Source: an uncultured Candidatus Poseidoniales archaeon (lineage in GTDB: Archaea; Thermoplasmatota; Poseidoniia; Poseidoniales; Thalassarchaeaceae). From it: a stretch of DNA of 64,000 nucleotides. How positions within the stretch are numbered: position 1 is the first letter of the stretch; every line of letters starts with the position of its first letter. Below the pieces are notes generated by a model. That model did not search any database. It was not told the origin of the DNA and worked only from the letters and a program-made list of their open reading frames with translations. Positions 30,663-32,847 of this stretch are shown one piece after another. The translations under genes were made by a program, and so were the position numbers. The stretch is from positions 1 through 64,000 of the forward strand of contig CAJJBW010000005.1 in assembly GCA_905182515.1 (NCBI GenBank), written 5' to 3'.

Positions 30663-31199
30663 GTGGCACGTAGGGAAGAGAAAGTTGATGCTGAACTTCT
30701 TGCACGTCTAGAATCAGGTACTGGAGATCGTATTAGGGTGCCATTACCTAATAGAAAAGTAAATGAGATGTTTGCAATAGCGGATCAAATTCTTGGCGGC
30801 CGACGTGTCCGTTCAGTATGTGAAGATGGGCAAACCCGTCTAGCAAGAATACCAGGTAAGATGCGTAGGAGGCAATGGGTAAGGGAAGGAGATTTGATTA
30901 CGTTACAACCTTGGGAATTTCAGGATGTAAAAGCAAATGTATGTATGAGATATACTAAGACTCAATCATTGTACCTCTCAAGAAAAGGTGTTTTACCAGA
31001 AATAGTCGATGTGTTCGGAATGTCAGATGACTCACAGATAAATAATAACAATAAAGATGCCAAATCTAAAGAAATTATTCCAGAAGAAATTTTAGCAAAT
31101 GAAGAAGTATCCGATGACGTAGAAATAGAAGAAGTAAAGAGTACTCCTGCTCCAGTTACCAAAGATGCAGACGATGACATCGACTCATTCTTTGGGTGA
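30663..31199 (+). CDS. eif1A: Translation initiation factor aIF1A with acidic C-terminal tail
   Basis: OB-fold initiation factor that binds the small-subunit A site. Residues 25-118 carry the family core (NRKVNEMFAIADQILGGRRVR, RIPGKMRRRQWVREGDLITLQPW). A GTG at 30663 is the start. The protein is 178 residues, about 60 longer than most archaeal aIF1A. The extra part is a low-complexity acidic tail ending DADDDIDSFFG. It heads the aIF1A-Rio1-KH gene set, a combination typical of archaeal ribosome biogenesis loci. Confidence 0.95.
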   Translation: MARREEKVDAELLARLESGTGDRIRVPLPNRKVNEMFAIADQILGGRRVRSVCEDGQTRLARIPGKMRRRQWVREGDLITLQPWEFQDVKANVCMRYTKTQSLYLSRKGVLPEIVDVFGMSDDSQINNNNKDAKSKEIIPEEILANEEVSDDVEIEEVKSTPAPVTKDADDDIDSFFG

Positions 31200-31205
31200 A
31201 AATAG

Positions 31206-32090
31206 ATGACTAAAAAAAAAGAATGGGATTTGGAACCAGACTTTGATGCCCTTATGAAGGGTGAAAAGAAGCATGAATGGATATCTGAACCAAGGTTTAA
31301 AAAAATGTTTAATGAAGTTGAACATGGCCTACAGGGAGTTATGGGTAAAGGACGTTATGAATGGGTAGATCGTAGAGTTTTTGATCAAGTTTTTGATAGT
31401 TCTACATTGTTAGCCATCCATAAGATGATGCAGAAGGGAGATATTGAGACAATCGAGTATCCGATAGCACGAGGCAAAGAAGCCCATGTATTCTATGCCA
31501 CTAGTAATCAGGGCCCAGTAGCTGTAAAAATATTCCACACTACAAATGCTGTATTCAAAAGCTTAGCCAAATATATCGATGGAGATCCACGGTTCGGAGG
31601 GCTATCTCGCCGTCATAGAGAATTAGTAAATATATGGGTCCGCAAAGAATATAGAAATCTAAAGAGAATGAGGAAAAATGGTCTGCAAGTTCCAATGCCC
31701 ATTTCCCATTTTAAGAATGTGTTAATCATGGAATTTATAGGCGAAGAAAAAGCTAGCCCAAGATTAAGAGATGTTACTTTGGATGATCCTTATGAAGTAT
31801 TTTCCCAACTTCTTGACATTGTTGCAATAAACTGGCAAACCTGCAATTTAGTTCATGCTGATTTCAGTGAGTATAACATTTTGATAAAAAATAATGATAT
31901 TTGGGTAATAGACGTCGGGCAAGCAGTAACTGATCAGCATCCAAACGCTCAAGAATTCTTAGTAAGAGATGTAACAAGACTCGTAGAATGGATTAACCGC
32001 CAAGGTTTTGAGGTAAATATTGCGGATTGTTTAGTTAGGGTTTTAGACGATCCAGTTCCAATTTTACCACCACTTCCGGGCGGAGATTAA
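31206..32090 (+). CDS. rio1: RIO1-type atypical protein kinase
   Basis: Kinase/ATPase of the RIO family, acting in maturation of the small ribosomal subunit. The 294 residues include the lysine of VAVKIF (Lys108), the catalytic loop HADFSEYNIL (Asp219) and the metal-binding IDVGQA (Asp236). The sequence QGPVAVKIFHTTNAVFKS and the RIO1-type flexible loop fit RIO1 rather than RIO2. It is 6 bases after aIF1A, with GGGTGA overlapping the stop. Confidence 0.95.
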   Translation: MTKKKEWDLEPDFDALMKGEKKHEWISEPRFKKMFNEVEHGLQGVMGKGRYEWVDRRVFDQVFDSSTLLAIHKMMQKGDIETIEYPIARGKEAHVFYATSNQGPVAVKIFHTTNAVFKSLAKYIDGDPRFGGLSRRHRELVNIWVRKEYRNLKRMRKNGLQVPMPISHFKNVLIMEFIGEEKASPRLRDVTLDDPYEVFSQLLDIVAINWQTCNLVHADFSEYNILIKNNDIWVIDVGQAVTDQHPNAQEFLVRDVTRLVEWINRQGFEVNIADCLVRVLDDPVPILPPLPGGD

Positions 32091-32115
32091 ATCTGATGAC
32101 TTTCTGACGGTGACA

Positions 32116-32847
32116 ATGGAGCATCTAGCGCGTATACCCAAAGATCGCATCGCAGTACTTATTGGAAAGCGTGGGGTAACCCGCAAGATGATTGAAAATG
32201 CATGCGATGGTAAGTTAAATATAGACTCAGTATCAGGAGAAGTTAACATTATTTGGAATTCTGAAGATGTAGATCCAATAGTACGTATGAAGATGCCTGA
32301 TGTAATTATGTCAATTGGAAGGGGATTAGCTCCGAAAAGGGCCCTACAACTTATTGAAGATGATATATTTCTAAGGATGTTTGATATCAGAGAATGGGTC
32401 GGGAGACAACCAAATCAAATAAGAAGAATGAGAAGTCGTTTAATTGGAACAAATGGGAGAATAAGGAGTTTAATTGAGGAACTTTCTGGTTGTGAAATAG
32501 CGATTTATGGCTCAACAGTCTTAATAATTGGTGATAATGAAGGCCTCGCAATTTCTGTTCCTGCAATAGAAGGCATACTCAGAGGTTCAGAACATGGTAC
32601 TGTATTATATGGCCTGGAACAAGATAGAAGAAGGCAAAGAATTCAATCAAGAAGTTTAGAATCATTTCAGGATAAATCTCAGGAACCGCAATCTGGCTTC
32701 GATGTGTTAGTTCCAGGTTTAGCCGATGCGCGCCGTAAGGCCGAGCGTAAATTTACTAACTCGCAAGTTGATCCTCAAAACGAAGAAGAAATATCAAATA
32801 TGCTGCAACTCGCTGAAGATGAAGAAATAGTGTACGAAGAAGAATAA
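32116..32847 (+). CDS. Dim2/Pno1-like KH-domain RNA-binding protein
   Basis: A 243-residue protein with two KH domains. The first has I-GKRG (residues 16-20) and the second IGTNGRIRSLIEELSG. Archaeal Dim2/Pno1 homologues bind the 3' end of 16S rRNA with aIF1A and RIO kinases as partners, and the gene order here matches. The C-terminus is a charged, acidic tail. ATG 32116 follows GGTGA; a GTG at 32110 is an alternative. Confidence 0.92.
   Translation: MEHLARIPKDRIAVLIGKRGVTRKMIENACDGKLNIDSVSGEVNIIWNSEDVDPIVRMKMPDVIMSIGRGLAPKRALQLIEDDIFLRMFDIREWVGRQPNQIRRMRSRLIGTNGRIRSLIEELSGCEIAIYGSTVLIIGDNEGLAISVPAIEGILRGSEHGTVLYGLEQDRRRQRIQSRSLESFQDKSQEPQSGFDVLVPGLADARRKAERKFTNSQVDPQNEEEISNMLQLAEDEEIVYEEE

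Follow-up and report, generated by a model that had tools for sequence, protein, structure and literature searches.

The contact between the eukaryotic initiation factor eIF1A and the GTPase eIF5B promotes subunit joining (PMC3434475, PMC4231746). Archaeal aIF1A is said in reviews to be without an acidic extension (PMC6412873), and a contact between aIF1A and aIF5B has, according to a further review, not been demonstrated in archaea (PMC7531240). The C-terminus of the archaeal ribosomal stalk is disordered and turns helical upon GTPase binding (PMC11624264), and another report describes the conserved Phe of the stalk as fitting a hydrophobic pocket of aEF1A, aEF2, aIF5B and ABCE1 (PMC6791870). 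Here we describe an aIF1A with a long acidic tail, encoded in a stretch of 64,000 nucleotides (hereafter the window; positions 1 to 64,000 of contig CAJJBW010000005.1, assembly GCA_905182515.1) from an uncultured archaeon of the order Poseidoniales (Marine Group II), family Thalassarchaeaceae. Poseidoniales are a globally abundant marine order. Throughout the order aIF1A carries such a tail, which was gained independently and in most members ends in a motif like that of the stalk; we found no description of the Poseidoniales aIF1A tail in the literature searched.

Architecture and conservation of the tail

The protein belongs to the aIF1A family by curated cut-offs, scoring 107.7 bits against TIGR00523 (cut-off 102.9) and 60.7 bits against PF01176 (cut-off 30.2), and its gene is single-copy in the source genome, the assembly of which is approximately 71% complete. 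The core ends near residue 121 and is followed by 57 residues that run to the end DADDDIDSFFG, the reading frame closing with ...TKDADDDIDSFFG-TGA. The matches to archaeal aIF1A structures in the PDB (1jt8, 4mno and 5jb3) cover the core only. Ordinary archaeal aIF1A, such as those of P. abyssi (4MNO) and M. jannaschii (1JT8), resemble the protein in core sequence and fold but end at or near the core. The description given in the initial annotation, of an aIF1A with a long acidic tail ending in DDDIDSFFG, was therefore borne out. In an AlphaFold2 model built with 47 sequences, the predicted local distance difference test score (pLDDT) is mostly above 90 in the core and approximately 50-65 in the linker, whilst the last block reaches up to 72 and shows a short helical turn only at the tip, which suggests that the tail is disordered with a slightly better defined tip.

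The tails of 123 distinct Poseidoniales aIF1A proteins, all extracted with their stop codon, range from 22 to 125 aa (median 53) and are on average 43% acidic and 2.6% basic. The pattern [ILVM]xx[FLM]F[GA] stands directly before the stop in 106 of the 123, against an expectation of 0.005 for shuffled tails, and among the remaining tails eight end in DIDSLFGPA and one in LDDLFE. An identical DIDSFFG end is found in 73 of the 123 proteins. The linkers that precede this identical end (33-85 aa) are almost unalignable, with a pairwise identity of 30% compared to 24% after shuffling and 86% in the core. Within the same 73 proteins the codons for DIDSFF differ only synonymously, Ile being encoded in three ways, Ser in four, and Asp and Phe in two each. 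Synonymous variation at fixed residues, next to linkers that are near-random, shows that the tip peptide is under purifying selection at the amino-acid level. The initial annotation had proposed a comparison with related genomes, in which tails varying freely and sharing no terminal motif would have spoken against its reading; the linkers do vary freely, but the terminal motif is kept.

Among the genes compared, the combination is also particular to this protein. None of 311 Poseidoniales genomes contains the exact end DxDx[FL]FG-stop more than once, and wherever positions were compared it lies at aIF1A. In a sample of 47 crude window genes plus 177 genes from ten 20-kb stretches of one relative, aIF1A alone combines an acidic tail with a terminal hydrophobic-F end. 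An acidic disordered extension and a conserved hydrophobic tip, two marks of an eIF1A-type tail, are both present.

The tails hold further motifs ahead of the tip. In total, 242 hydrophobic-F/W motifs were observed in the tails compared to 45 expected from shuffling, with up to six in a single tail. Internal DDLFG/DDLFA copies, several per tail, are found in Poseidoniaceae, and DDDLFG, DDLFAD and DDMFSS occur internally in tails of Poseidoniaceae and of genus g4 of Thalassarchaeaceae. In the Poseidoniaceae tails (L226-L237, L297 and L133-L146) as many as six motifs, many of them DDLFG, DDLFAD or DDMFGS, lie in an acidic context, and their number and spacing vary by genus in a manner resembling an expanding short repeat.

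Distribution and origin

Of 319 Poseidoniales genomes, 292 yielded an aIF1A, and every intact Poseidoniales aIF1A that was extracted carries the acidic tail. The outgroup comparison was confined to the phylum Thermoplasmatota, archaea beyond it lying outside the search, and took in 40 non-Poseidoniales genomes from 29 families, of which three belong to MGIII, the sister order, and 37 to others. In these 40 genomes aIF1A ends 0-19 residues past the same core point and the tip is absent, which agrees with the earlier remark that the extension is unusual for archaea. Whether the tail was gained independently or shared with eukaryotes had been left undecided in the initial annotation. Its absence in MGIII and the 37 other Thermoplasmatota genomes argues for a single gain, independent of eukaryotes, and the simplest reading of the sequences compared is that this gain took place on the Poseidoniales stem; the idea of a tail shared by descent did not hold. 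Inheritance from eukaryotes, or from an archaeal ancestor, was rejected within the phylum since the tail is confined to Poseidoniales. In addition, matches to eIF1A structures in the PDB reach no further than query residue 136, short of the tip, and so give no sign of common descent with the eukaryotic tail. A scan of IMG/VR for a viral origin found no relative.

Two relatives have an interrupted gene. In one (G206) an in-frame TAG lies within the aIF1A core (L240:455-457), with tail and tip intact downstream, and is probably an assembly error or the mark of a degraded copy. In the other (G289) aIF1A ends prematurely (L062/L241) with DIDSFFG-stop just downstream, which looks like a sequence error.

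A stalk-like tip and its candidate partners

The ribosomal stalk proteins of the same order end in a similar way. All 30 of the 30 Poseidoniales aP1 sequences end in GLG[SD]LFG after an acidic run, (acidic)GFEGLGSLFG being typical, and 29 aP0 sequences end in GLG[DS]LFG (GLGDLFG or GLGSLFG), again after an acidic run. The aIF1A tips (IDSFFG, IDALFA, IDSLFG, LEDLFG, LEALFG, LESMFG, LANLFA and LAGMFG) have hydrophobic residues at the same positions i, i+3 and i+4, an invariant second F and a small last residue, and they share the acidic lead-in and the extreme C-terminal position. An acidic run followed by [IL]xx[LMF]F[GA] at the very end, which characterizes the stalk C-terminus, is accordingly found in aIF1A. 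Judged on sequence, the C-terminus of the same organisms' stalk is the best match to the tip, and a much closer one than either of the likenesses suggested in the initial annotation, which missed it. The two proteins differ in that aIF1A is a 30S initiation factor whereas the stalk is a 50S protein, the aIF1A tail is D-rich and the stalk E-rich, and their globular parts are unrelated. The sole family found in the protein was eIF-1a, with neither the PF00428 match nor the N-terminal dimerisation domain that mark the stalk family; the tail may be stalk-like in action, but the protein itself is no stalk protein.

We consider it about evenly balanced whether the aIF1A tip acts as a stalk-like short linear motif that tethers a translational GTPase, likeliest aIF5B, to the 30S subunit. 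The oligonucleotide/oligosaccharide-binding (OB) core of aIF1A occupies the A site of the 30S subunit, and the acidic tail would extend outwards as a flexible tether whose tip (I/L-x-x-F/L-F-G) would dock in the hydrophobic groove of the GTPase. Poseidoniales have a conserved aIF5B gene, and its product would be the likeliest partner, late in initiation, being recruited to or retained on the 30S complex. On the arriving 50S subunit the tip would then be exchanged for the true stalk, the same motif being able to displace it, with a possible effect on subunit joining. The internal DDLFG/DDLFA copies of Poseidoniaceae would raise the local motif count, as do the multiple copies on a real stalk. 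More tentatively, and with somewhat less than an even chance, the order may have independently evolved an aIF1A-aIF5B link that runs through the stalk-binding groove, and not through domain IV, and that is convergent with the eIF1A-eIF5B contact. If the tail does bind aIF5B via a stalk-like motif, factor 1A would have come to tether the subunit-joining GTPase on at least two separate occasions in evolution, through different chemistry, and a factor bound to the other subunit would be making use of the stalk motif. A whole marine order breaks the rule that aIF1A has no acidic extension (PMC6412873), and the same order may also break the rule that no archaeal aIF1A-aIF5B contact has been demonstrated (PMC7531240).

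Several observations weigh against a stalk-like tether. The motif is short, its likeness to the stalk is one of register and context, and the GFxG that stands ahead of the core motif in the stalk is missing in aIF1A. The partner is itself uncertain, as aEF1A or aEF2 might be drawn to a stalk-like motif no less readily than aIF5B. Part of the conservation may also have another cause: the terminal codon is GGG in 62 and the stop TGA in 67 of the 73 DIDSFFG relatives, and since GGGTGA sits at the Shine-Dalgarno position for the downstream RIO1 gene, the Gly codon and the stop may be partly constrained by this overlap. Moreover, in genera g2 and g9 of Thalassarchaeaceae (eight genomes sampled; L212-L217, L223 and L242) the acidic tails mostly lack the tip, and the exact tip is therefore not essential everywhere. 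The tails of g2 and g9 keep a single internal DDxGIW or DDGIWDM near the core, and one g9 genome ends in SLDDLFE; either the internal motif substitutes for the tip in these genera or the function has been relaxed.

The parallel with the tail of eukaryotic eIF1A, which ends in DIDDI and was said in the initial annotation to contact eIF5B, remains plausible as a functional analogy, given the homologous OB core, the acidic disordered tail, the conserved hydrophobic tip and a probable partner in the aIF5B/eIF5B GTPase. Its literal form, in which the DIDSFFG tip would bind domain IV of aIF5B as the eIF1A C-terminus binds eIF5B and would aid subunit joining, by convergence and not by inheritance, is in our view unlikely. 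The acidic composition and terminal hydrophobic residues are common to both tails, the terminal Ile of eIF1A and the C-terminal helix of eIF5B are required for subunit joining (PMC4231746), and the eukaryotic C-terminal tail, although variable in length and sequence, keeps its terminal eIF5B motif in most lineages (PMC6122471), all of which would fit such a contact. However, Poseidoniales aIF5B retains at its C-terminus the archaeal segment (..EKEVLDELITIHRKDSNFWGL). Alignments with archaeal structures extend over this segment to residues 594-601, whereas the longest eukaryotic matches end near 564-567. According to a review, the supplementary aIF5B helix occupies the site expected for aIF1A (PMC7531240). 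Because the archaeal C-terminal helix persists in these aIF5Bs and seems to cover the site on domain IV, the aIF1A tip is less likely to mimic DIDDI directly there. The independently gained tail also ends in F-F-G or L-F-A and not in the terminal Ile of eIF1A, its aromatic F and final G/A being nearer to the stalk. Regarding aIF5B itself, one genome of Poseidoniaceae genus g15 (G088) encodes an aIF5B-like protein (L287:111-2142) with a far lower score than its relatives and a divergent C-terminus that lacks the usual FWG end, and in the aIF5B of Poseidoniaceae (L279-L282) the TIGR00491 match falls into two pieces around model position 345, which suggests a lineage insertion between aIF5B domains.

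Explanations that do not involve a translational GTPase fare less well. Fold-back of the tip onto the OB fold of aIF1A or the 30S surface, or competition there, might regulate ribosome binding through autoinhibition or through nucleic-acid mimicry by the acidic stretch. This would suit a tail averaging about 43% acidic and 2.6% basic residues, but we regard it as rather improbable, as the AlphaFold2 tail is without confident order and acidity leaves the invariant IDSFFG tip and the several DDLFG copies unexplained. Binding to some other partner (aIF2, RNA polymerase/Spt5 or the RIO1 encoded next door) is similarly improbable: short linear motifs are readily repurposed and the genes for RIO1 and a KH protein do lie downstream, yet no independent support was found for such partners and the nearest relatives of the motif in the same genomes are the stalk tails. 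It is very improbable that the tail serves solubility alone, with no specific partner. The linker does drift freely in composition and some genera are without the tip, but the tip is strongly constrained in the presence of synonymous variation and the other sampled genes have no such ends; this disfavours a solubility tail for most of the order, g2 and g9 being possible exceptions.

The least probable of the explanations, with almost no chance of being correct, is that the tail recruits PCNA through a PCNA-interacting protein (PIP) box. A PIP box had been suggested in the initial annotation from the IxxFF spacing, which is found in Thalassarchaeaceae and is indeed the hydrophobic-xx-FF spacing of PIP peptides. 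The consensus Qxx[ILM]xx[FYH][FYW] was rejected for aIF1A, as the glutamine is missing and the FEN1 control ends differ. Of the 106 motif-bearing tails, 103 have D/E at position -9 and none has Q, and the FF is not kept, being replaced by LF or MF in the other family, Poseidoniaceae. The true PIP boxes of these genomes have another form, FEN1 of the same family ending in QTSLFDF, QASIFDF, KPTLFDF or similar (Q/K-x-[ST]-[LI]-F-D-F), and there is no known PCNA role for a 30S A-site factor. The gene upstream of FEN1 (L290:2-1483 and L294:2-1489) encodes a protein of approximately 495 aa without a Pfam match, which ends in a repetitive acidic tail of the DDFDEDDFDDDDF type, another acidic aromatic tail in the order.

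Features and neighbouring genes

The features of the locus are collected in Table 1. The ATG of the RIO1-type kinase gene at 31206 lies 6 nt after the aIF1A stop. RIO1 is a ribosome-assembly kinase, and the arCOG04150 KH-domain protein encoded by the third gene is universal in archaea.

Table 1. The aIF1A gene, the parts of its product and the genes that follow it, in window positions.
Feature	Position	Strand	Description and basis
aIF1A gene	30663..31199	+	178 aa, from GTG to TGA; scores exceed the TIGR00523 and PF01176 cut-offs
OB-fold and helical core, ordinary aIF1A, approximately residues 22-118	30726..31016	+	Pfam/NCBIfam, PDB matches, AlphaFold2
Acidic disordered linker, approximately 50 aa, length and sequence free among relatives	31026..31175	+	Alignments, pLDDT
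DIDSFFG-stop, invariant motif at the C-terminus, in the stalk-like register [ILVM]xx[FLM]F[GA]	31176..31199	+	Tails of relatives, AlphaFold2
GGGTGA, Gly codon and stop, Shine-Dalgarno-like for the next gene	31194..31199	+	Sequence position; Shine-Dalgarno role putative
RIO1-type kinase, 294 aa, next gene, likely operon	31206..32090	+	NF041310, 215.9 bits, under its equivalog cut-off
arCOG04150 KH-domain protein, 245 aa, third gene	32110..32847	+	TIGR03665, 159.2 bits (cut-off 114.2)
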